Assembly (NCBI RefSeq): GCF_036669915.1
Contig: NC_089319.1
Span: 3,681,082-3,745,081, forward strand
Reading direction: 5' to 3'
DNA from: Pocillopora verrucosa
Taxonomy: Eukaryota > Cnidaria > Anthozoa > Scleractinia > Pocilloporidae
Length of the DNA: 64,000 bases
In this document: piece by piece, positions 24,971 to 60,830 of the stretch
Layout: each line of letters begins with the position of its first letter
Numbering within the stretch: position 1 is the stretch's first letter
Made by a program: the position numbers and the translations under genes
The notes under the pieces: model-generated
Databases searched by the model: none
What the model saw: only the letters and a program-made list of their open reading frames with translations
What the model was told of the DNA's origin: nothing

Positions 24971-25031
24971 GAGCTTTGGTTTATAGATTTAATGAATGTA
25001 ACCGAAGAAGTTACAATTCATAGACCAAACA

Positions 25032-25062: not shown

Positions 25063-25143
25063 GGGTGATCTAGAGGTCCTTTCATACGATCACTAATTAG
25101 CTGCCTTTTTTCTGACGTGGTGTAAATGGGCGTCAGGAAGTAA

Positions 25144-26774: not shown

Positions 26775-27138
26775 CTACTAAGCATTCATGCCTTGTTATA
26801 CATTTGATATTAACAACAGGGATGCTACCATGACACCTATGACATCTATGTATTTATTGTGTCTGGAGGGCTTATCTCCCACACAGGGACAGCAATCATT
26901 AGCTTCATCAAATATAAATTTTTTTTTTGTACATTGTATCAAACAAGTATCATAACACCAGGATGATTCTTCAAATGTTCATTGCATAAGTAGTTATTAC
27001 TATGACAAGTAGTTTTATCTAAACTGGAGCCTTCAGTACATGATCTCTCTCTGCAAATGTGGTGGTGTTGTATGTTGGAAAGGAAACATTTTTTGCAAAA
27101 AATAAATGAAAGGACCAGGTTACTCTCTTGTTACTAAC

Positions 27139-29808: not shown

Positions 29809-29829
29809 CCGCGCTGTTAATGATCAATT

Positions 29830-40600: not shown

Positions 40601-41406
40601 ACTTCGGCGATGGAAAAATTATAGTTTTCATTATTATTCAGCCATGTCTCAGTCAATGCGAAAAAGTCTACGTTATTTTCGACTGCATAATCCTTGATCG
40701 CAAGTTCCTTCTTATTGATTGATCTGGTGTTCAACAAACAGAAGTCAATGGGTACGAATCCATTCTGCAGTTTTTGCTTTGAGCATCTTATGCTGATAAG
40801 ATTGTGCCAATTCACTCCTCTGGGACAGCAATTTTTGGAGCCAAGGGTGGCGTTGTACAACACAGTGGCTGGCCGTAATGCATGGCTGCGTTTGGCTTGC
40901 GATGAAACAATGACCGGTATTGTTCTATTTCCAGAGGGCCCGGGATTGAGCTTAAATGTCAGATCGCCAATTAGTTCCATGTTGAAAGCGGCGGAGCTGT
41001 TGGGATAATAAAAGCATGGTCTTTTGTGTCTTTTCGTCCTGCGCCGCTTTGATAAATTCCTGTGCAGAAACGAACCAGTGATTGTGTAGCAATTCGTCCA
41101 GCGATGTGAAATGCTCGTTGTGAACAAAACATCTTTGTTAGAGTAATTAGATGTATTGTGAAGCAAGATTCCGGCAGCTTTGTGGGTCGAACGGAAATGC
41201 GACGGTGGATAGAAAAAATCCCTTCTAGGAGGCAGAATATTCAGCGTTGAGTCGCATTTTGGAGGCCAGTTTGTAGATTCGTAGCTTCTGTAATGTCTTC
41301 CGTTCAGAAATGGTTGGTTGGTCCAGTAGAGAGCGAAGTAGAGGAGAAAGAGTGTAGAGCGATCACATGCACGTCTTACCCGCATTATGCAAATCAATAA
41401 AAAAAA
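37564..41406 (-). mobile_element. Full-length L2-like LINE
   Basis: About 3.84 kb, minus strand, 7-bp target duplication, 3' end with (TTA)n tail (plus 37564-37601). The 3' UTR holds a perfect 9-bp hairpin (AGCGCTATT 37614-37622 / AATAGCGCT 37636-37644) and an ACTA-type tandem repeat at about 37775-37870. It carries one uninterrupted ORF (37909-41385). The target duplication and intact ORF suggest a recent insertion. Confidence 0.88.
37909..41385 (-). CDS. LINE ORF: endonuclease-reverse transcriptase with N-terminal NPGP
   Basis: Likely start at 41385 (MRVRRACDRS), giving 1158 codons. The open frame extends to 41445 only by reading into antisense BTAF1 sequence. Order: hydrophobic/basic N-terminus; 2A-like GDLTFKLNPGP ending at residue 150 (genomic 40936); AP-type endonuclease (LLNTRSI, ALTETWL, GGGVGLL, YRPPPS, SDHSAIHC); reverse transcriptase (NFRPISNL, LLLDMSAAFDTVDHD, GVPQGSVLGPVLY, YHLYADDTQLYLSF); C-terminal LINE tail (WLPVSQRIDYKI). 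The endonuclease motif usually written GDFN reads GEFN here (IVGEFNYHVD), so the catalytic Asp may be changed. Confidence 0.9.
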   Translation of the reverse strand: MRVRRACDRSTLFLLYFALYWTNQPFLNGRHYRSYESTNWPPKCDSTLNILPPRRDFFYPPSHFRSTHKAAGILLHNTSNYSNKDVLFTTSISHRWTNCYTITGSFLHRNLSKRRRTKRHKRPCFYYPNSSAAFNMELIGDLTFKLNPGPSGNRTIPVIVSSQAKRSHALRPATVLYNATLGSKNCCPRGVNWHNLISIRCSKQKLQNGFVPIDFCLLNTRSINKKELAIKDYAVENNVDFFALTETWLNNNENYNFSIAEVCPTGYQFYHVPRKNARGGGVGLLIKKHMKVTKQTQRNFKSFEYLDIVTTCSTGSTRIFTIYRPPPSKANQLNSALFFEEFCILAEQLVVSPGNLLIVGEFNYHVDNISNLDTVKFNNILESFGLVQHVNGPTLDLIITRAEDELVNSTGIRDPMLSDHSAIHCKLRLKKPPLEQKEISYRKLRSVNMSSFNDDLKQSNLLSTSTLDLTGLIEKYENTLTETLERHAPLKRRVITLRPSAPWYHEGISDAKRKRRKLERRWRSSRLCADRQIYVDQCRVVNKMLKDAKASYYSSIISENASDPKVLFNAVDKLLHRKVERRYPTAPSTIELTNNFADFFDKKIATIRTELSNEATSNTQSCEANKQPCHAEFKEFRVMSEREIEGFVDTIGKKSCDLDPIPASILKECKSALLPVLTNIVNMSLQSASMPAALKEAVIKPKLKKNNLDSEDYSNFRPISNLKVISKIIEKAVSCQLSDHLRDNDLEESFQSAYKRFHSTETALLRVQNDILFEIDNQKCVVMLLLDMSAAFDTVDHDLLLERMAKRYGVKGNVLKWFRSYLQDRKQFVIIDGNKSKMKELRYGVPQGSVLGPVLYLLYTSPIVDIIRRHRLNYHLYADDTQLYLSFKPTPAELPSSIEKIEAFVSEIDSWMVCNKLKLNRGKTELLILSARHRPPPSIEYVDVSGERIEPSPSARNIGVIFDEHMSLDKHVTSTCKACFFHLRNISKIRDCLSLADTEKLVHAFITSKLDNTNSLLYGLPKFLIDRLQNVQNVAARVVTRTRKYDHIKPVLKQLHWLPVSQRIDYKILLLTFKALNGQAPSYITEVLKPYVPTRNLRSSSKNLLKVPPVKLVSYGHRCFSFVAPTLWNSLPNNIKESSSLLDFKTCIKTYLFNKFYN

Positions 41407-41661
41407 AAGTTTAAACTGAACATCGCCAACACAGTGATCTCGCAAGACAACTCAAGCCTATTGACCATGGATACTGGACAACTCCTGGATCTCTTTTCAG
41501 TCGACCAAGCAAAGAAGAGAGAAAAACCAAGCGCACAACAGTCGAATGCAACTGGGAAGACTTCGCTCAAAACTATGATTGAAAATTTGGGAGAGCTATG
41601 GGACGAGGAACAGTATGAAACAGAATACAATTTAGACAACTTCATTGGTTCGCTGAAGTGA
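41407..41661 (+). pseudogene. BTAF1: Last exon of the BTAF1 copy
   Basis: Reads KFKLNIANTVISQDNSSLLT, then QLLDLFSVD and ends LWDEEQYETEYNLDNFIGSLK plus TGA, the conserved C-terminus of BTAF1. The frame is intact, but its splice acceptor is now 3.85 kb upstream (37555-37556) on the far side of the LINE, so normal splicing is broken. Listed apart from the main entry because it marks the insertion site. Confidence 0.85.
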
Positions 41662-42660
41662 AAAATAGTATGCGTCATTTTGGGATAGATGATTGTCAGG
41701 TTGAAAACCTGGCCCTATGTCTGCGTTGGTGGAGACGAAGTCGCTCTGGTCATTGAAGTTTACCTTGGAGCAGCCATAACGATTCAAAAAGGAGAACCGA
41801 GGTTAATAGAAAGGTTAAACACCTTCTTGGGTCGTTGCCCCGCATTTTGCGAAAGGAAGTTGGAAATTCAAACATTGCTTAGGAAGTGACAAAGAAAACA
41901 AGTAAGGAAACAGACAACCAAAACAAATTTTGATTTGATATTCTCAAATTAAAAATGCCTCAGAAAATTGACGGTGATGTAAACATTTTGGAGGTAATAG
42001 GCTGAATTTCATAAAGTTAGCTCGCCTTTGCATATTAGTAAAATAATAAGAACACATTCAGAGTAATTTGAACGTAGCTAGCGTATATTCGGGCATAGGA
42101 TGTCGCGCTCTAGGAAAGACACTTTCCTTTGTTTGATTTAGATCAAATTCCCACTTACGAAACGAAACATCTTTGGTGATGGCAATTAGGCATGTGGTGA
42201 AATAAAGGTTTTCACTCTGTTATAGTTGTATTGTTTTGTTCCTTTTTTCCGTTATGTTAAAGCTAGGAGAGGAAGAGGACTGTTGGTGGGTTTTATTAAT
42301 AGACTGGTCATCACAATTCTCCTGAACTTTGAACAAAATCAGGAACTTTTTTTTGTGATTAGTACCCGTAGTATCCGTTTGAATCTTGAGTAAGAATAGC
42401 TATAATCTAAGCATTTGGATATCAAGTTCAAAAAGTTCTACTCGATTAGGAGTAAAAGACTTAATGAATCCCAGTTAAACGATGACTAGACCTGGGTAAG
42501 GGCTGTCTAATGACTGAGACATGTGAAACCCTAACTACTCCGGCAACAGCACAAAGGAAGGCGACCGAGCCAGTAAGATATGATACGAAATAAACTCCAC
42601 TAAGAGGAAAACATAGTTTAGCATATACATTATTAACAGATAATCACGTTTTTCCTCGTA
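41662..42660. other. Gene-free stretch
   Basis: No recognisable exons. A 66-codon ORF at 41689-41889 has no known motif. Confidence 0.5.
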
Positions 42661-42668
42661 CAATTTGC

Positions 42669-42826
42669 TTAGGGCTAGGGCTAGGGCTAGGGCTAGGGCT
42701 AGGGCTAGGGCTAGGGCTAGGGCTAGGGCTAGGGCTAGGGCTAGGGCTAGGGCTAGGGCTAGGGCTAGGGCTAGGGTTAGGACTAGGACTAGGGCTAGGA
42801 CTAGGACTAGAGTTAGGGTTAGGTTA
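42669..42826. repeat. Interstitial TAGGGC/TTAGGG-like array
   Basis: About 18 uninterrupted GGGCTA units, then variant units (AGGACTAGG, GGGTTAGG). These differ by one base from the animal telomere repeat TTAGGG. The 62-codon Arg-Ala ORF across it is an artefact of the repeat. Confidence 0.93.
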
Positions 42827-43042
42827 GTTAAATCAACAACCGTATATTTTTAAAGAACTAAAAAATTTTACACGCCTTAAGGGTTCGTGTAATTTGGGTA
42901 GCCTTTGAACAGTTCACTTGTGCTAATTTTCCCCAAGTTGTACTTAAAATCTTGTGATTTTCTTATGAAAATCTATAATTCATATAAATATTAAGTAATA
43001 AATGCATTTTAAGAACAACAAAAAGATAAAGCGTTAACAGTT

Positions 43043-45402
43043 TTAAAAAACGTTCGCTATTGACATATTCCTTGTGTACCCTAAAATATTGTTAAGACGG
43101 TTCATAGCGGCATCGGTGATTTGATTCATCTCCATATTAAGTTTTGTAACTTTACACGTTGGTGCCTGTAATGCTTGACATAGACTGACAACACCGGCAT
43201 CGGTGATGTGATTAAAACCCAGATCAAGTTCGGTTACTTTACATGTTGGTGCCTGTAATGCTTGACATAGAGTGGCAACACCGGCATCGGTGATGTGATT
43301 AAAACCCAGATCAAGTTCGGTTACTTTACATGTTGGTGCCTGTAATGCTTGACATAGACTGGCAACACCGGCACCGGTGATCTGTTTAAAACCCAGATCA
43401 AGTTCGGTTACTTTACATGTTGGTGCCTGTAATGCTTGACATAGACTGGCAACACCGGCATCGGTGATCTGATTACCACCCAGACGAAGTTCGGTGACTT
43501 TAGATGTTGGTGTCGGTAATGCTTGACATAGACTGGCAACACCGGCATCGGTGATCTGATTACAACCCAGATCAAGTTCGGTGACTTTACATGTTGGTCT
43601 CTGTAATACTTGACATAGACTGGCAACATCGGTATCGGTGACCGTGCAAGAAGCCAGTTCAAGTGTGGTGATTGTATTCCATTCAGATTCCTTCTCTTCA
43701 CTGAGTGCACCTAAAACATTTAATGTAAAAGACACAGCAGGACAGTCCACATCCCCCATCCTAGAGCCAGAAAGACCAAAATATCCATTTCTTATGTCGA
43801 ATACGTCGTGAAATCTCTTTACTATTCCCTTGGCAAACTCAATGTCTTCGTATCTTAGGAGACATTTAGAAATTAATTCCCCCTTTTTGGCTTCTTTTTC
43901 CCATAAGTCGTCGCTGAGAAATGTGTGGATAATCATCTTCTCCTCAAATTCGTTGTCTTTTTGCTTGGACAAAATACCAGACATAAACAGAACTACTTCT
44001 GTAGACACATGTTTGGGGGGGATAGTTCTTGTCTCTACAAACCAACGCGCCGCCAAGTACTCTTGAAGAGTCAAATGTGTAAAACAAAAATGTTTAGTCG
44101 TCTCAGAAAAAGATTTTCTGAAAGGAGGACCGCAATGAAGAAGACCGCTTCCACACAGAATCAGTTCAACCTCATGTAAGTTCAAAGTTTTCAAATCCTC
44201 TTTAAAGAAAAGAAACTTTCTCTCCAGAAGAAGTTGAGCTGCCAGCTTTGATAATTCATCCAGAGTCTTCTTGAGAGAGGCTCTTTTCTTTGTATCGTGT
44301 CTTCGCACGAACATGTTGACCACTCCATCATAAAGGTCACTTGTTTTCACCGGGAGAGGATTATTCTTCTTTGGTTGCTGTAGAGTATATTCGAAGTAGG
44401 AGCACATAAGAAAACAGAGCACAGGAATGTGGGCAAAGCTGACAAGATTGTCATTCTTTGTAATGTGGTCCATTACAATGTTTTTCATTCGGTCGTTGTT
44501 TTTGAAATACTTTCCAATGTATTCTTTTACCTGTGGCTCGGAAAACCCTATAATTTCAACGTATCTGTCAAAATAGATGTCTTTGGCTTTCATTTCGTCA
44601 GATTCGTCGGGTCTTGACGTGATCATGACAACCGAACCTCTCAGTATTTTTCCTTTGATAAGCTTGGCACACAGTGCTGCTACTGGCATCTTCTCTTTGG
44701 CGTTATTTGGGTACTTTTCATCCGAATCACTAGCGATATACTCTCGTTGTGAACACTCGTCATACCCGTCGATGATAATCAAAATTTCTTCGGAATGATG
44801 AAGAATGTACTCAAATATAGAGTCGTCGATATTTGAGTAGTCATCCAGCGCTGAAGATCGGTTTAAGATATCCTTTAAGGTAACAGGGTCGTCCCCAAGT
44901 AGGTTAAGCTGACGGAACGTGAGCAAGTATGCGAACTTAAAATCAGGTAATTCTGCATTTGCTCTGGATCGAAACAATTTGTTGTCAGCCCAATCTCTGA
45001 TCAGCTTTTGACAAAACAGTGTTTTACCGATGCCTGCCTTTCCAGCGACAAGAACAGATTTTGGATGTTTCCCATCGGTTGGGATGAAAATTTCTTGAGA
45101 GCTTTTAATTTTCTTTCCTTTTATTTGACCGTACTGGCGAAGGCGTTTTTTTCGTTTCCCATCGGTTGGGATGATAATTTCTTGAGAGCTGTTTATTTGC
45201 TTTCCACTTATTTGACCGTACCGGCGAAGGCGTTCTTTTCTTTTCACATGAGGATCTTCGACTGGTTTTCTTCCATGTTGCATGAGAATGTTGGTGAATA
45301 TGTCATCTGTTCTTACTTTGGACATGGTCGGTAAGGCCTGAACGAGGTACTCGGTGTGGCTTTTTATTGATTCTTTCAACGCATCGGAGTATTCCGCTAC
45401 AA
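43043..45402 (-). CDS. NACHT-LRR exon (NLR core)
   Basis: A single large exon after acceptor CCTTTCAG/TT (45402), phase 1, ending in a stop at 43045-43043. The first residues (VAEYSDALKESIKSHTEYL) precede a 29-residue tandem duplication (45241-45068; both halves contain RRYGQI/RQYGQI and SSQEI.IPTDGK). Walker A is GKAGIGKT, followed by FCQKLIRDW. Walker B is ILIIIDGYDEC. The NACHT winged-helix region follows (FTHLTLQEYLAARW). The C-terminus has seven LRRs of 28 residues (TELDLG.N.ITDAGVASLCQA) that are nearly identical to each other. No effector domain lies in this exon; upstream exons supply it. Confidence 0.88.
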
Positions 45403-45409
45403 CTGAAAG

Positions 45410-46103
45410 GAAAACCGTTACCTTTATTTATTTTGATAAACTATTCATTTAGTAACTTTTCCGATACTCGACGAAGAGTCATTGATCTGCCTGACTTGTA
45501 ACGCGATTGGTTATCACGCTAGCAGAGTTTTGCTTTAATTAGGCTTTCTGAAAAGTGCAAGTTAATCTTGAATCCGTTCGCAATTAATTGACACCAAATG
45601 CCAAATGCCAAATTTAGATTAATCTTTAGCTGACTCTCACCCTGTGAACACCTCGCTATTACAGACACCATGCCACAGTGGACAAGAGCCAACCCCTGAG
45701 GAAACGCGTAAAGAAATGACTGAAATAGATTCCCTTTGAACTCTTGCTGTTGCTATAAAGTTTTACTTATTTTATCTCTTGCTATAGCAGACACTTCAAT
45801 ACTTCATCCAAAATCCTGACTCACATAATATAAAGCAACTTTATGATAAAGGAAAACAAAGAAACCATTCTTCAGTTGGGTGCAAACATTTGAATTTCTA
45901 TCGTACCCTTTTATTACGGACTCTCACTACTGCAGACACCATATCACCCCCCACCCCCCATGGTGTCTGCGGTAACAGCAGTTGACTGTGCTTGGAAAAG
46001 TAACAACTGACATAACTGTTAAAAGAATTTAAGAACATTCTAATTATCACCTAAGAATTTTAATTTTGATAAATCCTTAGCTTCAGGGTCTCTTTTCACT
46101 CAC
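45410..46103. other. Intron before the NACHT exon
   Basis: No exon recognised. Contains inverted copies of an ACAGACACCAT-type motif (about 45932-45946 and 45959-45973, stem of about 15 bp with one mismatch), a possible small foldback. Confidence 0.45.
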
Positions 46104-46193
46104 CTTTCTTTTCCTGAAGTTTCACAGTGCTGTGTCCTACTTCCTGTTTTCTTTTGTGACCAGAAGTGGACAGTAAGGTGGAGGGTGAAGTAC
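46104..46193 (-). CDS. Linker exon type 1 (STSGHKRKQE), fourth copy
   Basis: 90 nt, acceptor CCTCTCAG/GTACTT, donor AAAG/GTGAGTG, phase 1 to 1. Reads GTSPSTLLSTSGHKRKQE then a Lys/Glu tail. Last linker before the NACHT exon; same exon as 47618-47707, 48519-48608 and 49428-49517. Confidence 0.7.
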
Positions 46194-46546
46194 CTGAGAG
46201 GAAAAGTACAAAGAGCAATTCATGGTGTTACTTTAAATAGCGACATGAAAACAGGTCAAATCAACATGCAATTAACTGACATACCGTGTCACGACGTCAC
46301 CGTCGGTTGTTTGAGTCATAATTTAAGATCAATATTGAAAACACCCAGTTTATCATTATATACTGTTTCACCAACCCCAGCCTCTACCATCTCAATATTC
46401 CCTTATAGCAAAACACAGAGAGAGGGAAAACTAAATTGGGTATAACTGCCTTAAAAAAAACATTTTTAATGAGAACTAAATGTATTTAAAAGTATTCTTA
46501 GATCAGTTTTACCATGAAATTCAATTTAACAGCATCATTTATTCAC

Positions 46547-46630
46547 CTTCCATTCTTTGGAGTTTCATACGTGGCTCTTCTAGTTCTTCTTCAGGATCAA
46601 AGGTGGAAGATCCAGGAAGAGGCAACATGC
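46547..46630 (-). CDS. Linker exon type 2 (GMLPLPGSSTFDPEEE), second copy
   Basis: 84 nt, acceptor TTTTTAG/GC, donor GAAG/GTGAAT, phase 1 to 1. Acidic (FDPEEELEEP) then basic (MKLQRME). Near-identical to 49868-49951. Confidence 0.7.
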
Positions 46631-47278
46631 CTAAAAATAAAGTTATACAGAGAGATATTAGCAATTCTACTAATAAATAGTTAGAAACAAACAATTACCA
46701 ACTTGTAGTTAAAGATAGATTTAAAAAAGGTGCTCAAAACATCTATTTGATATTCACATATATATCTCATGTATATTGTCTTAACCCTTTACATCCTATC
46801 ATCAGTCTGCATATTCTCCACACTGCTCCTTATACATTTCCTAGTGTGCTGAAAAGGAGAATTTGTTTGCCAATCAAAAGTTTCCTTCTCAGTTGACCAT
46901 GTCCTTTATTCTCATCACCATCATGAGCAATTCAGGAGTGATATTGTGGGAGAAATTAGATGCTGGTCACTCTTAGGGTTTATTCCACAAACCAACTCAA
47001 ATTACTTTCACATGAGTAGAGAATCAGGCACAATCATATCTGGAATAATTTACATTATTTTACATTATTTACAGCAATATATGTATTTATGGTGTTATTT
47101 TTCTTTGATAAATAATAATTAACACAGCAAACCAACATGTGACCATATGTATATAAGTGCACAAAATTTATCCAAAATACATCACCAATGTCAGTTTTTC
47201 AATACATAATTTATGATTAAGGTTGGGGAAAAACCTTCATTATACTATTATTATACTATTATTATGATTATGATTATA

Positions 47279-47310
<32 letters not shown>

Positions 47311-47617
47311 GATCATTTTATTATTATTATTAAAACTGTTTTACCATCTACTGCCACTGATCTAAAAATAGATAAATAAATTGGGTTTTAATTCCTCTCA
47401 AATTAATCTTTTTAATGAAGAACTGAAAGTATTTCGAATAATTGTCAGTTTACTTTTACCCTTCAGACCCTAGCAACCTTAAATGTTTAATCCCAAAAGC
47501 ACACTTCTTTATACTTGACATCATGGCTGAACACACTGAACATATTCACTTAAGAAATTAATTCAAACTGAGCTTCCTCTTCACCTTTTCTTGGCTTCAA
47601 GGTCTCTTTTCACTCAC

Positions 47618-47707
47618 CTTTCTTTTCCTGAAGTTTCACAGTGCTCTGCCTTACTTCCTGTTTTCTTTTGGGACCAGAAGTGGACAGTAAGGTGGAGGGT
47701 GAAGTAT
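47618..47707 (-). CDS. Linker exon type 1, third copy
   Basis: 90 nt, phase 1 to 1. Begins AT (not GT) after CTCAG, changing the first residue from Gly to Asp. Otherwise as 46104-46193, with one change (GPKRKQE). Confidence 0.68.
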
Positions 47708-48518
47708 CTGAGAGGAAAAGTACAAAGAGCAATTCATGGTGTTACTTTTAATGGCAACACGAAAACAGGTCAAATCAACATGCGATTAACTGACATACTG
47801 TGTCACTATCAGTTGTTTGAGTCATAATTTAAGATCAACATTGAAAACACCCAGTTTATCATTATATACTGTTTCTGTCACCAACCCCAGCCTCTACCAT
47901 CTTAATATATTTCCTTATAGCAAAACACAGAGAGAGGGAAAACTAAATTGGGCATCACAATCATATCTGGAATAATTTACATTATTTTACATTATTTACA
48001 GCACTATATGTATTCATGGGGTTACTTTTCTTTGAGAAATAATAATTAACACAGCAAACCAACATGTGACCATATGTAAAGAAGTGCACGAGATTTATCC
48101 AAAATACACCACCAATGTCAGTTTTTCAATACATAATTTATGATTAAGGTTGGGAAAAAACCTTCATTATACTATTATTATACTATTATTATGATTATGA
48201 TTATAATTATTATTATTATTATTATCATTTTATTATTATTAAAACTGTTTTACCATCTACTGCCACTGATCTAAACATAAATAAATAAATTGGGTTTTAA
48301 TTCCTCTCAAATTCATCTTTTTAATGAAGAACTGAAAGTATTTCAAATAATTGTCAGTTTAGTTTTACCCTACAGACCCTAGCAACCTTAAATGTTTAAT
48401 CCCAAAAGCACACTTCTGAATACTTGACATTATAGCTGAACACACTGAACATATTCACTTAAGAAATTAATTCAAACTGAGCTTCCTTTCCTTGGCTTCA
48501 AGGTCTCTTTTCACTCAC

Positions 48519-48608
48519 CTTTCTTTTTCTGAAGTTTCACAGTGCTCTGCCTTACTTCCAGTTTTCTTTTGTGACCAGAAGTGGACAGTAAGGTGGAGGG
48601 TGAAGTAC
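48519..48608 (-). CDS. Linker exon type 1, second copy
   Basis: 90 nt, phase 1 to 1, same borders as the other copies. Reads STSGHKRK then a Lys/Glu tail. Confidence 0.68.
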
Positions 48609-49427
48609 CTGAGAGGAAAAGTACAAAGAGCAATTCATGGTGTTACTTTTAATAGCAACATGAAAACAGATCAAATTAACATGTGCTGAAAAGGAGAATT
48701 TGTTTGCCAATCAAAAGTTTCCTTCTCTGTTAACCCTGTCCTTTATTCTCATCACCATCATGAGCAATTCAGGAGTGATATTGTAGGGAGAAATTAGATG
48801 CTGGTCACTCTTAGGGTTTATTCCACAAACCAACTCAAATTCCTTTCACATAAGTAGAGAATCAGGCGCAATCATATCTGGAACAATTTACATTATTTTA
48901 CATTATTTACAGCAATATATGTATTCATGGGGTTACTTTTCTTTGAGAAATAATAATTATCACTGACAGGAAACCAACATGTGACCATATGTATATAAGT
49001 GCACGAGATTTATCCAAAATACATCACCAATGTCAGTTTTTCAATACATAATTTATGATTAAGGTTGGGAAAAAACCTTCATTATACTATTATTATACTA
49101 TTATTATGATTATGATTATAATTATTATTATTATCATTCTATCATTATTAAAACTGTTTTACCATCTACTGCCACTGATCTAAACATAAATAAATAAATT
49201 GGCTTTTAATTCCTCTCAAATTCATCTTTTTAATGAAGAACTAAAAGTATTTCAAATAATTGTCAGTTTAGTTTTACCCTACAGACCCTAGCAACCTTAA
49301 ATGTTTAATCCCAAAAGCACACTTCTTTACACTTGACATCATAGCTGAACACACTGAACATATTCACTTAAGAAATTAATTCAAACTGAGCTTCCTTTCC
49401 TTGGCTTCAAGGTCTCTTTTCACTCAC

Positions 49428-49517
49428 CTTTCTTTTCCTGAAGTTTCACAGTGCTGTGCCTTACTTCCTGTTTTCTTTTGCAACCAGAAGTGGACAGTAA
49501 GGTGGAGGGTGAAGTAC
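49428..49517 (-). CDS. Linker exon type 1, first copy
   Basis: 90 nt, phase 1 to 1, same borders. Reads STSGCKRKQE; otherwise like the copies at 46.1, 47.6 and 48.5 kb. Confidence 0.68.
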
Positions 49518-49867
49518 CTGAGAGGAAAAGTACAAAGAGCAATTCATGGTGTTACTTTTAATAGCAACATGAAAACAGGTCAAATCAACATGCAATTAAC
49601 TGACATACCATTTCACTATGTTACTGTCAGTTGTTTGAGCCATAAGATCAACATTGAAAACACCCAGTTTATCATTATATACTCTTTCACCAACCCCAGC
49701 CTCTACCATCTTAATATTCCCTTATGGCAAAACACAGAGAGAGGGGAAAACTAAATTGGGTATAATTGCCTTTAAAAAAAACATTTTTAATGAGAACTAA
49801 ATGTATTTAAAAGTATACTTAGACTAGTTTTACCATGAAATCTAATTTAACAGCATCATTTATTCAC

Positions 49868-49951
49868 CTTCCATACTTTGGAGTTTCATAGGTGGCTCTT
49901 CTAGTTCTTCTTCAGGATCAAAGGTGGAAGATCCAGGAAGAGGCAACATGC
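49868..49951 (-). CDS. Linker exon type 2, first copy
   Basis: 84 nt, phase 1 to 1, acceptor TAG/GC and donor GAAG/GTGAAT. Nearly identical to 46547-46630. Confidence 0.7.
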
Positions 49952-50901
49952 CTAAAAATAAAGTTAAACAGATAGAGATTAGCATCTCTATTGATAAATA
50001 GTTAGAAACAGCCATACCAACTTGTAGTTAAAGATACTGTAGATTTAAAAAAGGTGCTCAAAACATCTATTTGATATTCACATATATATCTCATGTATAT
50101 TGTCTTAACCCGTTACATCCTAACATCAGTCTGCATGTTCTCCACACTGCTCCTTATACATTTCCTAGTGTACTGAAAAGGAGAATTTGTTTACCAATCA
50201 AAAGTTTCCTTCTCTGTTGACCATGTCCTTTATTCTCATCACCTTAATGTGTGATTCAAGAGTGATATTGTAGGGAGAAATTAGATGCTGGTCACTCTTA
50301 GTGTTTAAAGGGTTTATTCCACAAACTCAAATTCCTTTCACATAAGTAGAGTATCAGGCACAATCATATCTGGAATAATTTTCATTATTTTACATTATTT
50401 ACAGCAATATATGTATTCATGGGGTTACTTTTCTTTGATAAATAATAATTAACACAGCAAACCAATATGTGACCATATGCATATAAGTACATGAAATTTA
50501 TCCAAAATACACCACCAATGTCAGTTTTTCAATACATAATTTATGATTAAGGTTAGGAAAAAACCTTCATTATACTATTTTTATACTATTATGATTATGA
50601 TTATGGTAATATTTATTGTTGATATCATTTTATTACTATCAAAATTTTTTTACCATCTCCAGCCACTGATCTTAACATTCCTTGAGAGAAAAATAAATTG
50701 GGTATTAATTTCTTTCAAATGAATCTTTTTGATGAAGAACTGAAAGTATTTCAAATAATTGTCAGTTTAGTTTTATCCTACAGACCCTAGCAACCTTAAA
50801 TGTTTAATCCCAAAAGCAGACTTCTTTACACTTGACATAATAGCTAAACACACTGAACATATTCACTTTAGAAATTAATTCAAACTTAGCTTCCTGTTCA
50901 C

Positions 50902-50976
50902 CTTTCCTTCCCTGTGCTCTTCCAATAAGTTCTAATCCATGACCAGTGGTGGGTATTACAGTGAGGGGTGAAGTAC
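50902..50976 (-). CDS. Linker exon after the glycosyltransferase exon
   Basis: 75 nt, acceptor TTCTTAG/GTACTT, donor AAAG/GTGAAC, phase 1 to 1. Reads GTSPLTVIPTTGHGLELIG, a diverged relative of the type 1 linker. Confidence 0.65.
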
Positions 50977-50999
50977 CTAAGAACAAAAAGTACAGGGAG

Positions 51000-51690
51000 A
51001 GATGGAATTTAGAGGATAAGGCACCTAAAATCAGATTTAAAAGAAAACAAATAATGAGGCAACCACTAAATGCTGACATTCAAAACCATACAACACACCT
51101 CAAATCATTTTTATAAAAACCCACACACAAATACAGTTAACATTTTCTTTTATAGCTCCTCCAACTAAAATCTTGCCAATTTTTATTTTAGCTTGTTTTA
51201 TTTTATTTATATTTGGAGCCAAAGATAAATACAACCAGACAGAAAGGGAAATATACTAGGAAATGACTTGAAAACAAATCACTTCTAGCTGCAGATTGTC
51301 ATTGCATACATAGTCAGCATGAGCTTAGTCATGAAACAATTGGTTCTATCTTGGTGAAAACCTGGACCCCCCTCTACACCTCTGTTAACCCTATGGTGCA
51401 CCATGTTGAATGAGTTATGTGTTGTGTTCTCAATCTTTTGTAACATGACAAATTTCATATCTGCAAGGACACAAGAAAGAGGGAAAAAGTTAATAGTGCG
51501 TGAAAGGGAACTGTTACAGCTGGTTTACTCATATCAAAACATTAACAGAAAGAAATCATGCAATCTGGATGTGCTATCTACATGTACCTGCATTTAGTCT
51601 TTTACACAAGGTTTCTATATTTCCAAATACAGTAGGTTAAAGTAACATCACCTACACCTAAAATTTAAGCAAAGATAAAATCATTGAACA
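51000..51690. other. Intron between the glycosyltransferase and first linker exons
   Basis: AT-rich. No exon or repeat recognised. Confidence 0.5.
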
Positions 51691-51693
51691 TAC

Positions 51694-51884
51694 CATTTTC
51701 CACGACTTTCTCAATCAGCCCTTTAAACCTCTCACATTCTGCTTTCCAAGAGTACACCTTCCTGTAGTTCTCGCGAAGCTTCACAGCATTGGCTTCTCTC
51801 TCTTCCGCACTTTCTTCATACATCTCTCTGATCCTTCGTGCCCATTCACCTTCATCTTCATCCGATCCAACAATGACAGTGTCT
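51694..51884 (-). pseudogene. Glycosyltransferase exon, 3' part after the LINE
   Basis: Reads TVIVGSDEDEGEWARRI, then EEREANAVKLRENYRKVYSW and ends at a phase-1 donor (AATG/GTATGT). It continues the reading frame of 55705-56759 once the LINE and one copy of the 9-bp target duplication (51876-51884) are removed. Confidence 0.82.
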
Positions 51885-54800
51885 TTATTTTTATTTTTTT
51901 TATTTTTTTTTATTTATTTATTACAATTTAATGGCACATATAACTTACTACTTACTTACATACTTACATTAATAGATAATAATACAAAAGAGTAAAAGGA
52001 AAGGTGCCATAAGGATGGTCCGCAAAAGAGATAAATCCCCATGCACGGCAGACCACCTTTAACAAAAAAAAAAAACAAATCCAAACTAAAATCAATCAGA
52101 TCTTGCAGTCAAGTAATCCCTTACACCCCTTTTAAAACAAGAAACACTTGGAGCCTGACGGACCGATAGTGGCAGCCCATTCCACATGTGGACAATCCTA
52201 TTAAAATAGCAAAACTTAAAAGTATTAGTCCTCGCGTAGTTCTTTTTTAATTTAAGTTCGTCCTTACCCCTCAACGAGTATCTTTCCGAATGCGAATAAA
52301 ATTGGATATAAGAGGATATATCTATATTAATATACCCATTAAGAACTCTATAAAAAAATAGTACATCAAAAAAGAAGCGTCTGTCCTCTAGAGATAACAG
52401 GTTCAGTTGTTCTTTACGAGTGTTGTAATCATCATCAGTTTTTAGAATAAACTTGGTGGCTCTTCGCTGAATCCTTTCCAATCTGTTAATGTTTCTAGCC
52501 GTGAAGGGTGACCAGACAATAGTACAGTATTCCAATTGGGACCTTACCAAAGCACAGTACAACCTTCTTAACGTGTTAACATCTTTCATACCCTTGCATG
52601 TCCTTTTAATAAGGCCAAGAATCTTGTTAGCCTTGCTTGATATCTTATCAACATGAGCATTCCAGGACAACTTGTTACTAGTAACTAATCCAAGATCACA
52701 GAATTCAGATGTTTCTTCCAGAGAGCTCTCATTCAGCTTAAGGTCAGAACGAAAAGGCATACTTTTTTTCGTGATACGCATCAGTTTGCATTTCTTTACA
52801 TTAAAATCCATTAGATTTCGCTGACTCCAGATGTGTAGATTATTCAGGTCAGATTGAAAATCATGTTGGTCTGATGTACAGTTTATCAGTCTTGATGTTT
52901 TACAATCATCTGCGTACAGTGCGATTGTGTTTCCAGGCATAACCACATTAGGCAAATCACTAATGAATATTACAAAAAATAATGGCCCTAGTAGGGAGCC
53001 CTGTGGTACACCGGATGGGATGACAGACCAGGCAGAACTCTGTCCCTCAATAACAACCCTTTGCTCTCTGTGGGTCAAATAATCCTCGCACCATCTCAGT
53101 AGGCTACCAGAGATGCCGAAATTACACAACTTCAGAAGGAGTATATCGTGTGATACTCTGTCAAATGCCTTAGAAAAATCTAAGAACACAACATCCACCT
53201 GTAGTCCATCATCCAAGGCCTTTGTCCACTGATGGTGTGTTAATACCAACTGGGTAGCACACGAGCGACCCCTTATGAAACCATGTTGCCAATCTGTCAG
53301 GTAAGGGGCCACATGAGGATATATGGCATTATATACAATCTTCTCTTGGCATTTACTTGGAATCGATAATAGGGATATAGATCGATAATTCTCTACCACA
53401 TCTTTAGCATCTGATTTAAACACAGGAGTGACATTAGCTCTTTTCCATGAAGAAGGAACTCTCCCACACCTGAACGACAAGTTAAACAGTAGAACCAATG
53501 GGTAAGATAGCTCCTCTGCACAGTCCCTCAATATCCTCGCAGGAATGCCGTCTACTCCAGTTGCTTTATTAATGTCTAAGTTGCAGAGGATATTCTTTAC
53601 TTCACTGTACGAAGTGAATACATCCATCAATAAGTTAGGGTTGATCACATCAACATGAGAGCTGTCAGAGTTTGATGTTTTTGTAGAGAACACGGAGCTG
53701 AAGAATTCATTGAACAGGGAAGCTTTTTCCACAGGATCTTTAGCAGACCTGGCTTTGCCAGAGTAAGTTATTACTTCTGGCAGTCTCTTGCTCTTGGATT
53801 TAAGAGAATGAAAAGACCAAAACTTCCTTGGATTAGTCTTCAGCTTATCCGATAGAGACTTTAAGTACTGGAAATACTTAAAGGAGATAAGACGTTTGGT
53901 CTGTTTCCTAAGAAATTTAAACTTTGTTGTCACCTCAAGAGAAGCATTGGCCCTTAAACGCTTCCACAAGACTTTCTTTTTCCTCACTAACTTTAAGACC
54001 TCTTTATCTATCCATGGAGGTCTTGGCTTGCGTCTAAGCTTCATCTTTGGTACATGTTGATTGACTGCCGCGAGAACAAGATCTTGGAAATTCACCGTAC
54101 CTGAGTCAATGTCCTCACAAGATATATAGGAATCCCATAAAATGTGAGAGAATGTATTTCTTAGACCATCAATGTCAGCTTTATCATATCGGTAAACTAA
54201 TCTTTGACTGTTTTTGGGCCTGTTGAACTTTTTCTTGATCGCGAAACAGACTGGGAAATGGTCTGAATCAAATCCATTTGGGTGCACAGTAGTTCCTTCG
54301 ATGAGTGATTCATGATTCGTCAACACAAGGTCTAAGATGTTACCAGATGATAAGGTATTAGTGGCACTGGGACGGGTGATATATGGGTTTGTTTGGGTGA
54401 GAAAATGGTCATCCAGGATTTCACAAAAAGTTTCAGTCAAATTGTCTAAACTAGTTGGTGATCCAGTAGACCAATCGACACAGGGAAAATTAAAATCGCC
54501 AGTGATAATTAAATCAGCGATTCCTGTACCAGAAGCTTTATTGAGAAATCTCCTGAATTCATCCAAGAACGTCTCTTCGACGTCTGGTGGTCTGTAAAAA
54601 ACTGCAAATAATAGACATCGTGTATTACTGGTCTTTAATTCACAGGCTAGCATCTCCGCATTTACCTCAAGATCGTGTCTCCGTACACATGGCAGGTGTG
54701 ATTTAGTTGCGAGCAACACTCCTCCACCACGCTTACCACGTCTATCCCGACGATGGATACTATAACCCTCAAGATGTAGATCACGGTCATCAAATTCATT

Positions 54801-55704
54801 GTCTAACCAAGTCTCCGTCAAGGCAACAATGTCAAAGGAGTCCATTAATAACAGAGCATTTAGGTCGTTGATCTTGTTTCGAATACTCCTCGTATTTAAT
54901 AGTAAGCACTTAGAGAAGCCATTAGCAGAGCGAGGAGAAGATTCCGCAGAGACATCAGAGCTTAAGCTTACATTCTGCCCAGTTGAGAAGGACGATTCAA
55001 AGAATGAATCAGTGAAGTTAAAAGGCCACCCACAATTTTTGTCACAGAACCACTGCTCATCAGAAGACCCCAAGTCAATATAAGCCTGTAGATCCATGGT
55101 AATGCACTTTAGGTGGAACCATTTGTTACAACCATCGCAGAGAATCCCTTTCTGATTGGAGCGAACCGGCTTCGTACATACATCACAAGGGCACTTCCAA
55201 AGAGGTTTTTTGCGAGTTGTGGATAATCCCGGAGATAATGACTGTCCTGGTCCAGGGTTTATTTCGATGTCTCCACATTGTACCAATCTTGAGATATTAA
55301 ATGTAGAAACAGAATTGGGATATCGAGTTAGGTCTGTACCAAAATATCCCTTCGCACGTGTTCCAAGATGGCGGACTCGCGATGTCAGTGCAACAAAGAA
55401 GTTTCGAGTCGTCTCCAAGCCTATGACGCCTCCAACAGGATGCAGACAAGTCTTGGGATGAGATAGTCGTATTTTGAAGAAAGTAAAACTATTGCAGGCT
55501 AAGAGACAAACTAAAAAAACGGTAAAGACAGGAGAGAGGGAAAACTTACAACCAGCCGCCATGACTACCGCTGACAGCCCACAGTACTCAGTCTATAGTT
55601 TGATTTTGCACCAACGCATACTGATAATACTACCAAACATTTTAGATCTTTCTTCTGCAGGTGTTAGCGATGTTAAAGTAAACAAAATATGTACAGGTCT
55701 CTGT
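51885..55704 (-). mobile_element. Full-length CR1/L2-group LINE inserted in a coding exon
   Basis: About 3.82 kb, minus strand. Flanked by ACAGTGTCT at 51876-51884 and 55705-55713 (9-bp target duplication). A 3' A-rich tail of AATAAATAAA type runs at plus 51885-51930. One uninterrupted ORF of 1156 codons. The exact duplication and intact ORF point to a young insertion, possibly polymorphic. Confidence 0.92.
52092..55562 (-). CDS. LINE ORF: signal-like leader, 2A motif, PHD finger, endonuclease, reverse transcriptase
   Basis: 1156 codons. Residues 1-30 are hydrophobic and signal-like (FTVFLVCLLACNSFTFF). GDIEINPGP ends at residue 105 (genomic 55248) and fits the D-x-E-x-N-P-G-P 2A consensus. 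A PHD-type Cys/His cluster follows (CPCDVCTKP, ILCDGCNKWFHLKC, WFCDKNC). Endonuclease: LLNTRSIRNKIND, LTETWL, GGGVLLA, YRPPD, ITGDFNFP, SDHFPV. Reverse transcriptase: NYRSISLL, VVFLDFSKAFDRVSHD, SGVPQGSLLGPLFF, IALYADDCK. The usual catalytic motifs are all readable. Jockey-superfamily, CR1/L2 group; exact clade uncertain. Confidence 0.92.
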   Translation of the reverse strand: MAAGCKFSLSPVFTVFLVCLLACNSFTFFKIRLSHPKTCLHPVGGVIGLETTRNFFVALTSRVRHLGTRAKGYFGTDLTRYPNSVSTFNISRLVQCGDIEINPGPGQSLSPGLSTTRKKPLWKCPCDVCTKPVRSNQKGILCDGCNKWFHLKCITMDLQAYIDLGSSDEQWFCDKNCGWPFNFTDSFFESSFSTGQNVSLSSDVSAESSPRSANGFSKCLLLNTRSIRNKINDLNALLLMDSFDIVALTETWLDNEFDDRDLHLEGYSIHRRDRRGKRGGGVLLATKSHLPCVRRHDLEVNAEMLACELKTSNTRCLLFAVFYRPPDVEETFLDEFRRFLNKASGTGIADLIITGDFNFPCVDWSTGSPTSLDNLTETFCEILDDHFLTQTNPYITRPSATNTLSSGNILDLVLTNHESLIEGTTVHPNGFDSDHFPVCFAIKKKFNRPKNSQRLVYRYDKADIDGLRNTFSHILWDSYISCEDIDSGTVNFQDLVLAAVNQHVPKMKLRRKPRPPWIDKEVLKLVRKKKVLWKRLRANASLEVTTKFKFLRKQTKRLISFKYFQYLKSLSDKLKTNPRKFWSFHSLKSKSKRLPEVITYSGKARSAKDPVEKASLFNEFFSSVFSTKTSNSDSSHVDVINPNLLMDVFTSYSEVKNILCNLDINKATGVDGIPARILRDCAEELSYPLVLLFNLSFRCGRVPSSWKRANVTPVFKSDAKDVVENYRSISLLSIPSKCQEKIVYNAIYPHVAPYLTDWQHGFIRGRSCATQLVLTHHQWTKALDDGLQVDVVFLDFSKAFDRVSHDILLLKLCNFGISGSLLRWCEDYLTHREQRVVIEGQSSAWSVIPSGVPQGSLLGPLFFVIFISDLPNVVMPGNTIALYADDCKTSRLINCTSDQHDFQSDLNNLHIWSQRNLMDFNVKKCKLMRITKKSMPFRSDLKLNESSLEETSEFCDLGLVTSNKLSWNAHVDKISSKANKILGLIKRTCKGMKDVNTLRRLYCALVRSQLEYCTIVWSPFTARNINRLERIQRRATKFILKTDDDYNTRKEQLNLLSLEDRRFFFDVLFFYRVLNGYINIDISSYIQFYSHSERYSLRGKDELKLKKNYARTNTFKFCYFNRIVHMWNGLPLSVRQAPSVSCFKRGVRDYLTARSD

Positions 55705-56759
55705 ACAGTGTCTCCACCTTTTACTTTTTGCAAAGCCTCAGCTATGCCAGATTCACCAGAGACTAGAACAGGAACACCAGCAGAAATGGCTTCGAGGGCA
55801 ACAAGCCCAAATCCTTCGGTACGGGATGGCAGAGCAACCAAATCTGACTGATAGAACATCACCTTGAGTTCCTCTTGTTCACTGCAATACTGACGGATGG
55901 TTAGTTGGTTGCGTTTGATACACGTGTTGTCAAGAAACCATTGCTCAACTTTTCGTTGTTCACCGGGAGATGCGCCAACAAATGTCAACTCAAAGTTCTT
56001 ACCAAGAGAACCAATGGCATTTGCAATTATATCATAGCCTTTCAGGGAAAGATCCTCAAAGGCAGCTCGGCCAAACACAGACACATTAAAATTCTTTACT
56101 ACTGATCTGTTTACGGCCAACTTTGATTCATTGCAAAACTTTCCAAAGATCCCAGGAGTGATAACCTTCACTTCAACATTAAGGAGACGTCTGCCGTACT
56201 TCTGTTGTAGACGGGAGCCAACGGCGACAACTGCATCCGCTGCTTTACACAAATCAATTTCCATCTTATGCTTCTTCTCGTTCTCTTCGATTGTATCTTC
56301 TGCAGCCGTGGTAGATTCTTTATATTTCCCAAGGTCCTCACAGTAGACGTGAACAAACTGGATCCATTTACACTTTGTTGACTGTACAAGGAAATATGCA
56401 GGACTACCCAGCTTTCTTCCATGGCCTATTACCAGATGTGGGTTTGGGAGCTCTGAGGGTGGAAACTTCAAGCACTCGAGGGGGTCGGCTGAACCAGGAA
56501 CACTTCGAGCTTTGATTAAATTGACACCATGTTGTTCAGCATCTTCTCTGTCCCGATCATCGCTATTAGAGACATAGCAGTGGATTTTCATACTACCAGC
56601 CGTCGCTTCTGCCAAATTAATAGCAAATTCTTGATTGAAAGTTGATAATCTACCTTTCGAAGATTTCCACTCGTCACAGAGAAACATGACATCTATAAGC
56701 CTCTGTTCTTTCTTCTCCTCTTCGCCACTGTCAGCAGTAGATGCGCTCGAACACGCCAT
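55705..56759 (-). pseudogene. Glycosyltransferase exon, 5' part before the LINE
   Basis: Start ATG at 56759-56757 (MACSSASTADSGEE). Paralogue of the enzyme at 28.6-29.8 kb: LIDVMFLCDEWKSSKGRLST, VIGHGRKLGSPAYFLVQ, SRTEGFGLVALEAISAGVPV (E-x7-E), GESGIAEAL. The N-terminal GG of the GT-B loop is GR here, which could affect donor binding. The frame runs into the LINE and ends at 55593, giving a 388-residue hybrid. Without the LINE the whole exon is 1237 nt, ending in phase 1. Confidence 0.85.
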
Positions 56760-57413: not shown

Positions 57414-60400
57414 TACAGTATTTGTAGAGCGCTAATTCCCAATGGTCCAAAAGCGCTTTACATAATAAAAATAACAAAATCCTAAACCTACAAAACTACA
57501 TTGTCATTCTATAAAAATTCCCAATGGTCCAAAAGCGCTTTACACAATAAAAATAAGAACAAAATCCTAAACCTACAAAACTACAAAACTACATTGTCAT
57601 CCTATAAAAACATCATCATTCTATACAACTTCATAACCAATTTTAAAAATCCACATCTTGAGCTTAGATTAAAAGAAGAAAGGGAATTACAAGATCTAAG
57701 TTCGAATGGAAGTGCATTCCAAACAGAAGGTGCAGCAATAGTAAAAGACCGGCCACCATAAGTTTTAAGATTAAATTTAGATGTAGAAAGTAAAAATTGA
57801 TTGGAGGATCTAAGAAGTCTACCAGGCTACCAGGTGTATAAGGCTTGATGAGATCAGTGATATAGCTTGGTGCAGCACCATGAAGCGCCTTAAATGTAAT
57901 TACTGCAATTTTGAAAGTTATTCTTTGTTTAATTGGTAGCCAATGAAGTTGAATAAGCAACGGCGTAACATGCTCATATCTACTAGTAAGGTGAATAAGC
58001 CTAGCAGCACTATTTAGGACACTTTGTAAACGTTTCAAGATACATTTAGGCTGACCGTAGAGCAGTGAGTTACAATAGTCGATCCTTGCAGTAACAAAGG
58101 CATGAATTAGAGTTTTACATGTATCGTAAGAAAGAAACTTGCGAATCTTAAAAATATTGCGTAAATGAAAAAACGAAGACTTGCAAACAGCAGTAACGTG
58201 CAGCAATATCGATAGAGAGTTATTAAAAATAACTCCAATATTTTTAGCAGTAGTTGAACATTCAACAGTGTCAGAGGCAATCACCAGGTTTGTTAACGCC
58301 GGACGTGGGCGATAGGAGGATGAAAAAACTATAATTTCAGTCTTCCCACTGTTCAGCTTCAGCTTGTTATTTAACATCCAAAGGTCAATATCTTTAACAC
58401 AATCTTCAAGAGCAGATGTACATGTTGACATATCCTCAGGCGATGACGTTTCAAAAGATAAATATAGCTGTGTATCATCAGCATAAAAGTGATAAGATAG
58501 ACCATGAGATCTTGCAATATCACCTAAAGGGGAAGTGTACAAAGAATACAACAAGGGGCCCAAAACGGAACCCTGAGGTACACCATAAGGTAAGGCATGC
58601 ACACCAGAAGAGACATCTTGGATTCTGACATACTGAGTGCGATCAGATAGATATGAACGAAACCAGTCCAGTGCCTGGTCACAAATGCCAAAACGGGTAG
58701 ATAGTCTAGCAAGGAGAAGAGAATGATCAAATGTATCAAAAGCAGCAGAAAGGTCCAGTAGAACCAAAACAACAGATTTTTGATTGTCAATGGACATAGC
58801 TATATATGTCATTGTAGACTCTGAGAAGAGCCGTTTCGGTGCTATGGTGAGCACGGTAGGCAGACTGAAAGACTTCACACAGGCCATTGTTGTCAATGTC
58901 AATGTCATACCTAGGTATGAGACAGTCACCTATGGCAAGCACTCTATTAGATATTTAGGGCCTAGGCTATGGACAAAACTACCCAAGAGTATCAGGGACG
59001 TCACAACCCTAACGTCGTTTAAAAGCAAGATACGCCAACTCAATATAAGTGAACTTTTAGATGATGGCTGCGCAGGCTGTAGCCTTTGTTCATTTTGACT
59101 TCTGTGTATTTTTACTATAAATCTCTTAATGAGTTAACTATAGATATTTTACCTACTACTGTATATAGTTTTTTTTTTAGTTTGTATATTCTCCCCTAAT
59201 TGGTGTCCCCAAATTAGTAAGGGATTTTTTCCCTGGCTAGACGGTTTTTGACACTTTAATAAAGTTTCTATCTATCTAATGTAGTCAACAAGCTGCAAAG
59301 CCACTACTTTCTCAATGACTTTGGACAAGAAGGTGAGGTTAGAGATCGGTCGAAAGTTCTTAAATTCTTGATAATCAAGACTCGGCTTTTTCAACAAAGG
59401 ACGAATTACAGCTCGTTTAAGTTCAGTGGGCATGACAGAGGTCTCCAAAGACAGCTTAACAATTTTCCAGATCACAGGGCAAAGGAGATCAAGACAACCA
59501 AGGAGTATTCTAGAGGGGACAGGGTCAAGTTCACAAGACTTTGATGCCAAAGGGTGCACAATCTGAAGTAAGGTCGAATATGAAGGACAGCTCAAACGAT
59601 GGAGTCTAGTTGTTGCTACTGTGGCTTCATTAAATAAATAAGTTCCCTGCATAGGGTTCGATTCCAGTTCATGTCGAATAGTAATAATCTTCTCACCAAA
59701 AAAGCCAATGAATCTATTTGCAAGATCCGCCACGGAAGAGCAAGATGGATACTGCGGTGCAGGACTCCGATGTAACAACTTACCGACAATGCCAAACAGT
59801 TTCCTCTGATTAAGGCAATTATCATCAATAAGTTTGCTGTAATATTGTGAGCGGACAGAGAGTAATAGCTCATTGACAATACGATTTTGTTCAATAAGAC
59901 GCAGACGATCTTCGGGCAATCTAGTCCTACGCCATCTCCTTTCCAGTCGGCGACGAACTCTTCTCTCCAGTTTAATCTCCTCACTAAACCATGGAGCAGC
60001 GGGACGAATGGTAACCATGTGCGATTTTAATGGCGCATGCTTATCCAAAACACTAGATAACTCCGAATTATACAAGTGAAGCAGCGTAAGTAAATCATTG
60101 GATGATTCAGACAAAAGAGGAGACATTGCAACATCTTGTCGAAAATGCTCCAAGCTGATGGCTTTTAATTTCCGACCACAAATACGCTTTCTTTCCCAAT
60201 TAGGCTTAACAAAACGAAGATCAGCACAAACAGTGTAATGATCCGATATCTCTGTGGAATTATCAACTGAAATAGCATTTAAAATATATTCAGCATCACG
60301 AGTGATGACCAGATCCAAAGTATGTCCAGCTCTGTGGGTGCAACTACGAACATGTTGTTGTAGATCAAATGACTCCAATAAGCTCAGGAAATAAGCCGCC

Positions 60401-60830
60401 GCAGTATTAGTTGTATCATCAACATGAAAATTAAAATCACCAGCGATTACAAGTGAACCAGTTTAAGTGATATAGGATTCTAACAGCGACGAAAATTCAT
60501 TCATAAAAAGCTCAGTTGAAAGATTGTTTCCAGATGAGGGTGGAGGACGATAGACAATAAGGATGGAAACAGATTGCGAAAAAATCTTAACTTCACTTTC
60601 GATGGCTTCAAAGGAAATGAAGGTGTCCAGATAGACCTTTGATGTCTGCTTAACTGGCAACGAACTTTTGAAAAGCAATCCGACGCCACCACCTCTTCCA
60701 TCACGAGCAGAGTGTAAAAAGCGATAGCCATTTGGGATAAGACTTCCGATTACTAAATTATCATAATCCCATATATCTTTTAATGCTTTGATAAACAATG
60801 AAGGCATCAGTGGCATCTGAGAGGCACCAA
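57378..60830 (-). mobile_element. Decayed L2-like LINE
   Basis: (TAA)n tail at 57378-57411, then a 3' UTR with AGCGCT pairs (57428-57433, 57452-57457) like the LINE at 37.6 kb, and a tandemly repeated UTR segment (about 57433-57500 and 57519-57600). Reverse transcriptase pieces at 57664-58800 (LLDLSAAFDTFDHS, GVPQGSVLGPLLY, YHFYADDTQLYLSF) and 59280-60378 (NFRPISNLTFLSKVIEK). Endonuclease piece at 60463-60816 (GGGVGLLF, YRPPPSSG). Frameshifts near 58.80 and 60.46 kb and a nested insertion break the ORF. Confidence 0.85.
58914..59273 (+). mobile_element. Nested 5'-truncated LINE tail
   Basis: Plus-strand ORF end (GKHSIRYLGPRLWTKLP, LTSFKSKIRQLNISELLDDG) with stop near 59098, a 3' UTR with AATAAAG and a short CTAT repeat tail. 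It interrupts the minus-strand LINE; AATGT on both sides fits a 5-bp target duplication. Confidence 0.7.

Follow-up and report, generated by a model that had tools for sequence, protein, structure and literature searches.

A probable GT4-NACHT-LRR receptor gene of the coral Pocillopora verrucosa with an apparently swapped head and a LINE insertion

Introduction

Does a glycosyltransferase encoded upstream of a NACHT-LRR exon in the coral Pocillopora verrucosa belong to the same receptor gene and, if so, where did this head come from? We addressed these questions in a stretch of 64,000 nucleotides (the window; contig C8, 3,681,082-3,745,081) together with searches of the genome (353 Mb, 52 contigs). 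A preliminary description of the window had joined the two parts into one protein and had pointed to a similar pairing reported for coral NOD-like receptors (NLRs), which is correct. In the parts of the papers available to us, GT group 1 heads occur with NACHT and LRR in Acropora tenuis and Acropora digitifera (PMC12314368), NACHT is found with glycosyl transferase in cnidarians (PMC8260672) and in work on the coral virome (PMC5013795), and Hamada 2013 is credited with coral GT-NACHT-LRR proteins (PMC13133943). GT-NACHT-LRR receptors have therefore already been described in corals, and the gene studied here belongs to a known kind. The accessible parts of related work also describe GT4 as a conflict effector and a GT4-TRADD-N-LRR architecture (PMC8195603), an expansion of GT4 heads in Acropora (PMC12314368, PMC8195603) and, in zebrafish NLRs, shuffled N-terminal repeat exons of ~30 aa (PMC4852459). 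As far as these texts could be consulted, they propose a role for the GT4 head rather than test it. New here are the apparent head swap via linker introns, the comparison of motif-intact with motif-poor heads and the recent break of the gene; a partial search of the coral NLR literature, covering titles and the starts of abstracts, found no description of a head swap through linker introns.

Results

A chain of nine exons

On the minus strand, exon 1 (56759-51694, interrupted by a LINE), seven linker exons and a NACHT-LRR exon form a chain of nine exons with phase-1 junctions. In the following, GT-I denotes the GT4 family of the GT4-TRADD-N-LRR loci and of the window head, and GT-II the diverged GT4 heads of the neighbouring local NLR units. 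The features, all on the minus strand, are:

55705..56759, minus strand: 5' part of exon 1, GT4-conflict head (PF20706, 2.3e-75; Glycos_transf_1, 3.3e-15), starting with the ATG at 56759 and ending with the first target-site copy
51884..55704, minus strand: LINE insertion in exon 1, with an open reading frame for PHD, endonuclease and reverse transcriptase (52092-55592) and an A-rich 3' end
51694..51883, minus strand: 3' part of exon 1, end of the GT4 head, with the second target-site copy (51883-51876) and a phase-1 donor at 51693
50902..50976, minus strand: linker A0, 75 nt, phase 1-1, the last exon of GT-I-family origin (splice borders, informative sites)
50721..50910, minus strand: interval in which the sequence crosses over from the GT-I family to the local NLR family (informative sites)
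49868..49951, minus strand: linker B1, 84 nt, phase 1-1 (splice borders, copy alignment)
49428..49517, minus strand: linker A1, 90 nt, phase 1-1 (splice borders, copy alignment)
48519..48608, minus strand: linker A2, 90 nt, phase 1-1 (splice borders, copy alignment)
47618..47707, minus strand: linker A3, 90 nt, phase 1-1 (splice borders, copy alignment)
46547..46630, minus strand: linker B2, 84 nt, phase 1-1 (splice borders, copy alignment)
46104..46193, minus strand: linker A4, 90 nt, phase 1-1 (splice borders, copy alignment)
43043..45402, minus strand: NACHT-winged-helix-LRR exon with phase-1 acceptor and stop codon (NACHT, 1e-28; LRR_6, 5.3e-31; NOD2_WH)

Re-measurement gave the same nine exons at 43043..56759, with GT-AG borders, phase-1 junctions and a total of 4200 nt, as had been described. 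This total, a multiple of three, is the sum of 1237 nt (exon 1 without the insert), 603 nt (linkers) and 2360 nt (NACHT-LRR exon); it was obtained by adding up lengths and subtracting the LINE and one target-site copy, and is not the length of an assembled insert-free sequence. Outside the LINE, the pieces totalling 4200 nt are free of stops and frameshifts. AG and GT border all seven linkers, and the donor of exon 1 and the acceptor of the NACHT exon likewise fit the consensus. When the 6.3 kb between exon 1 and the NACHT exon were scanned for exons of 60-130 nt with plain acceptor/donor consensus, a length divisible by three and an open phase-1 frame, exactly the seven linkers were returned (11 candidates without the frame filter). 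Dinucleotide shuffles of the same 6.3 kb (n = 300) gave a mean of 0.07 candidates and a maximum of 1, and none of the 300 reached seven. The linker exons are real, and the gene structure proposed initially is real and correctly placed. By contrast, the exact closure of the reading frame, which had been regarded as hard to get by chance, loses its weight. Since a few units, each divisible by three and phase 1-1, recur in tandem as the linkers, any subset of the linkers closes the frame; the total of 4200 nt therefore represents few independent coincidences, and we ruled it out as strong proof of a single gene.

The LINE in exon 1

The LINE (55704-51884) is flanked by two copies of the 8-nt target site GACACTGT at 55712-55705 and 51883-51876. 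A 1-kb probe from it has four other full-length matches in the genome at 99-100% identity and, thus, the LINE moved recently. Translation of the sequenced allele runs for 388 codons from the ATG and stops at 55593 within the LINE; consequently, this allele cannot yield the 1399-aa protein unless the LINE is lost or spliced out, and it lacks the uninterrupted coding exons expected of a coral GT-NACHT-LRR fusion. The break is recent and perhaps polymorphic, and chromosomes that lack the LINE possibly exist. More LINE frames, one long and one broken, flank the gene on the same strand (window 37909-41451 and 57664-60462).

A motif-intact GT4 head

Profile searches confirmed the GT4 and NACHT domains proposed for the gene. 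The head passes PF20706 (GT4-conflict) with 254 bits against a cut-off of 26. The stretch beyond the LINE corresponds to model positions 331-384 (E 0.0016, under the curated cut-off), and its DNA (51694..51883) is 92% and 93% identical to the corresponding place at two GT-I loci that lack the LINE, 86% identical at a third and ~76% at the two others. GT4 matches are abundant in the genome, at least 116 and at least 102 in two overlapping listings.

In GT4 enzymes, the E-x7-E and donor-site R/K motifs bind the nucleotide-sugar. The E-x7-E and FGR..KG motifs are intact in all six GT-I heads, i.e., the window head and five paralogs. All four GT-II heads, by contrast, have E-x7-K and lack FGR; aligned to MshA, the GT-II Lys lies opposite the second Glu. 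GT-II is therefore likely a pseudo-enzyme head that has lost GT4 motif residues. At residue 37, the second Gly of the loop, the window head has Arg, and the five other GT-I copies keep the Gly. Over 348 codons, the dN/dS of the window head against the five paralogs is 0.19-0.32, and it is 0.16-0.35 among GT-I heads (15 pairs), values that point to purifying selection on the GT4 head. Structure models of the head reached a pLDDT of 40 from the single sequence and of 66 from a six-sequence alignment. With the latter, the best Foldseek matches were BshA, sucrose-phosphate synthase and MshA (~1e-12, with TM-scores of only ~0.4), which is only suggestive of the GT-B fold of retaining GT4 enzymes.

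Linker exons accompany GT4

Two or three units, copied in tandem, make up the linkers. Neither gaps nor stops occur in the 16 A and 9 B local copies (25 in all); the A set of 16 is without A0, and the two A and three B linkers of the GT-I loci are also left out of these counts. Their divergence is 0.046-0.047 in the exons versus 0.064-0.110 in the flanking introns, and pN is not below pS (0.054 vs 0.023 for A; 0.050 vs 0.038 for B). The linkers are conserved in length and frame, not in sequence. Splice sites are largely kept: both AG and GT are present in 17 of 17 array A copies (A0 included), and array B copies have GT in 9/9 and AG in 8/9. At GT-I loci, both A copies have both splice sites; among the three B copies, one is intact, one is without both splice sites and one continues into a RING exon (L023:6637-7038), so that a RING finger is a further domain attached at a linker.

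Across the genome, linker A DNA is matched at 28 places. Compared with 146 distinct GT4 places among the matches listed, 27 of the 28 begin downstream of a same-strand GT4 match, 0.8-14.4 kb from its start, and they belong to 14 GT4 loci; the exception is a copy on contig C14 with no GT4 within 30 kb among the matches listed. NACHT lies within 30 kb downstream of 16 of the 28, among the NACHT matches listed. Linker exons accompany GT4 genes rather than NLR genes as such, and we rejected the idea that they are NLR exons in their own right.

The NACHT-LRR exon and its neighbouring units

The NACHT-LRR exon matches NOD2_WH just above the cut-off (23.5 vs 23.1 bits), and its best relatives in the PDB are NLRP proteins. 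It is 77-81% identical in protein sequence, over ~770 residues, to the corresponding exons of three neighbouring units; NACHT exon dN/dS is 0.61-0.95 (six pairs). These three units lie at 3.745-3.875 Mb of the same contig, on the same strand and in the order GT-II, linker array, NACHT-LRR; the GT-II heads are ~36% identical to the window head, their donor is in phase 1, and the NACHT acceptor is in phase 1 as well. Among the matches listed across the genome, 4 of 94 NACHT matches are preceded on the same strand by GT4 at a distance of up to 30 kb, all four in this array; the three GT4 copies of 36% identity beside local NLRs are missing from the list of at least 116 GT4 matches and were found by reading the loci. 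Having arisen by local duplication, the supporting units represent few independent events.

A HEPN_DZIP3 exon that ends in phase 1 lies upstream of many NLRs of the local family. Of nine fetched NACHT copies that lack a GT head, eight have this exon (one of them in part; for the ninth, none within 2.6 kb), and it occurs in only one of the four GT-headed units, unit 3 (6.5e-59). The nine copies come from 58 scored candidates; four of the nine were read over 2.6-2.7 kb only, and one flank was part-masked. This pattern fits the replacement of a HEPN head by GT4 plus linkers. In unit 3, the HEPN_DZIP3 exon has its own ATG and lies between the GT-II linkers and the NACHT exon (L011:6560-7312). Unit 3 is possibly an intermediate or a two-promoter gene; its gene may have two alternative heads, and its NLR could start at the HEPN ATG. 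A TRADD-N or HEPN exon concealed in the window gene was also considered, and tblastn found neither, TRADD-N being absent from window 43-57 kb at E 0.05. The space between the linkers and the NACHT exon holds no LRR exon of the kind that ends GT-I genes.

The proposal that GT4 and NLR form one protein is therefore upheld by the layout, with three neighbouring units in the same order and the HEPN exon absent from three of four GT-headed units, but not by the sequenced allele itself, which stops at 388 codons.

Two families meet just past the first linker

We compared the gene in 150-nt windows with the three local units and with GT-I loci fetched from contig C8 (3.997, 4.534, 4.669 and 3.92 Mb). 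In the head (20 windows) and in 51,883-50,933 (20 windows), all 40 windows matched a GT-I locus better, with median identities of 95% and 93% and minima of 90% and 78%, respectively; local units matched at all in only 5 of these 40. In the linker region, local units were better in 105 of 106 windows (medians 96% local, 84% GT-I), and in the NACHT-LRR exon in 49 of 49, GT-I loci giving no match. Informative sites, i.e., positions at which two GT-I loci differ from the three local units, locate the switch. From 51009 to 50910 (n = 25), 20 are of GT-I type, 2 local and 3 neither; these sites set the first linker against the local A linkers, exons paralogous to it, and the first few fall in intron that aligns poorly. 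From 50721 to 50370, in homologous intron, 14 of 14 are of local type.

Among the fetched loci, a TRADD-N exon and LRR sequence are present at five of five other GT-I loci examined, with degenerate LRRs in the window's own second copy. At the four fetched GT-I loci, a NACHT-LRR query found the LRR exon alone or, at one locus, no match longer than 120 residues. The borders of TRADD-N, plain-LRR and GT-I modules are also in phase 1 where read. These sequence comparisons show that the head and the first linker derive from the GT4-TRADD-N-LRR family, whereas the other linkers and the NACHT-LRR exon are those of the local tandem family of NLRs; the crossover lies at 50,721-50,910, in the intron that follows linker A0.

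Discussion

Here, we describe what is probably a coral NOD-like receptor gene with GT4-NACHT-LRR architecture, with a head derived from a GT4-TRADD-N-LRR gene, a local NLR body and a LINE that splits the head. Before the LINE arrived, and on any LINE-free chromosome, a single transcript would run from the head through the LRRs, which the exon layout makes likely. In the protein, the LRRs would detect danger signals inside the cell, the NACHT module would oligomerise, and the clustered GT4 heads would use a nucleotide-sugar to glycosylate a molecule of the invader or the host (cf. PMC8195603). The usual head of the local family, GT-II, has lost GT4 motif residues, so the swap put an enzyme-like head in place of a likely pseudo-enzyme. 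Several observations weigh against this reading: the stop within the LINE, the Arg in the head loop, linkers whose pN is not below pS, the splice sites lost by some B linkers, the HEPN exon of unit 3, the origin of the supporting units by local duplication, the NACHT dN/dS of 0.61-0.95, and the small number of NACHT matches, among those listed, with GT4 upstream.

A different reading holds that there are two genes, a GT4-linker gene that lost its 3' part and an adjoining NLR gene whose start is either an ATG inside the NACHT exon or an unseen first exon. An in-frame ATG does lie early in the NACHT exon, the NACHT frame of units 1-3 is open upstream of the acceptor and contains an ATG, unit 3 retains a HEPN exon that brings an ATG of its own, and the examined GT-I loci terminate in LRR exons without NACHT. 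We nevertheless consider two genes unlikely: the window linkers have kept their splice sites and frame with no other coding exon found for them to join before NACHT, the three units without an exon between linkers and NACHT are precisely those without the HEPN exon, and the Acropora annotation, in the part of the paper available, contains GT-NACHT-LRR proteins (PMC12314368). That the mosaic is an assembly artefact joining two loci is very improbable. Dense tandem arrays of similar linkers do assemble poorly, and a single assembly was used; however, the contig is 23.8 Mb long, the informative sites switch cleanly past 50910, and kilobases of single-family similarity lie on either side.

The possibility that the locus has decayed, so that the exon chain is a functionless relic of a pseudogene, deserves more weight, although we favour it less than a receptor gene with a young LINE. 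The LINE in exon 1, the Gly-to-Arg change in the head loop, the stop in the neighbouring GT4 copy and the relaxed dN/dS of NACHT all agree with decay. On the other side, no stop or frameshift other than the LINE was met in the 4200 nt, the LINE is young and the break recent and perhaps polymorphic, and the head dN/dS is low.

If the gene is a GT4-NACHT-LRR receptor, as we prefer, its relation to described architectures can be stated, within the parts of the cited papers that were accessible. It resembles the Acropora GT group 1-NACHT-LRR proteins (PMC12314368) in its GT head, middle NACHT, terminal LRRs and tandem clusters, and here the exon-level anatomy, the mosaic of head families and a LINE-broken allele are added. 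With GT4-TRADD-N-LRR (PMC8195603) it has the GT4-conflict head family in common, and GT-I loci carry the same linker types, but in the window gene NACHT-LRR replaces both TRADD-N and the plain LRR exon. Its NACHT-LRR exon is of the same family as in the HEPN_DZIP3-NACHT-LRR NLRs of corals (PMC8260672, PMC10236652), and the HEPN exon of the local NLRs ends in phase 1 as well; unlike in those receptors, the head consists of GT4 plus linkers, and HEPN is absent. Zebrafish NLR-B30.2 proteins (PMC4852459) similarly have N-terminal repeat exons of ~30 aa, of two main types that are shuffled between NACHT groups; however, they are vertebrate proteins with no GT4 head reported in the available text, and the repeats are alike by description only.

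We tentatively suggest that the symmetric phase-1 linker arrays are a recombination platform, in which unequal crossovers in linker introns swap heads in frame and give coral NLRs a germline combinatorial diversity. Head swaps would keep the frame because the GT-I, GT-II, TRADD-N, HEPN, NACHT-LRR and plain-LRR modules examined all join in phase 1. If linker arrays indeed act in this way, a pseudo-enzyme head could be replaced by a catalytic one. The locus offers a sequence-readable example of a GT4 head moved onto a receptor body, and with motif-intact and motif-poor sister heads on nearly the same body, the question of effector or decoy becomes testable by comparison.

Other features of the window

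A second GT4-conflict copy on the minus strand (window 24400-29823) has an in-frame TGA; TRADD-N, a weak linker-like exon and degenerate LRRs come next, and the whole is a broken GT4-TRADD-N-LRR gene adjoining the receptor gene. On the plus strand, 7594-8211 and 18953-19570 are open frames of 205 codons for which a Pfam search returned no family above cut-off; they are nearly identical, lie 11.36 kb apart and represent a recent duplication. Directly downstream of the NLR stop, at window 42650-42830, is a long AGCCCT hexamer tract, and parts of this region also align near other local units.
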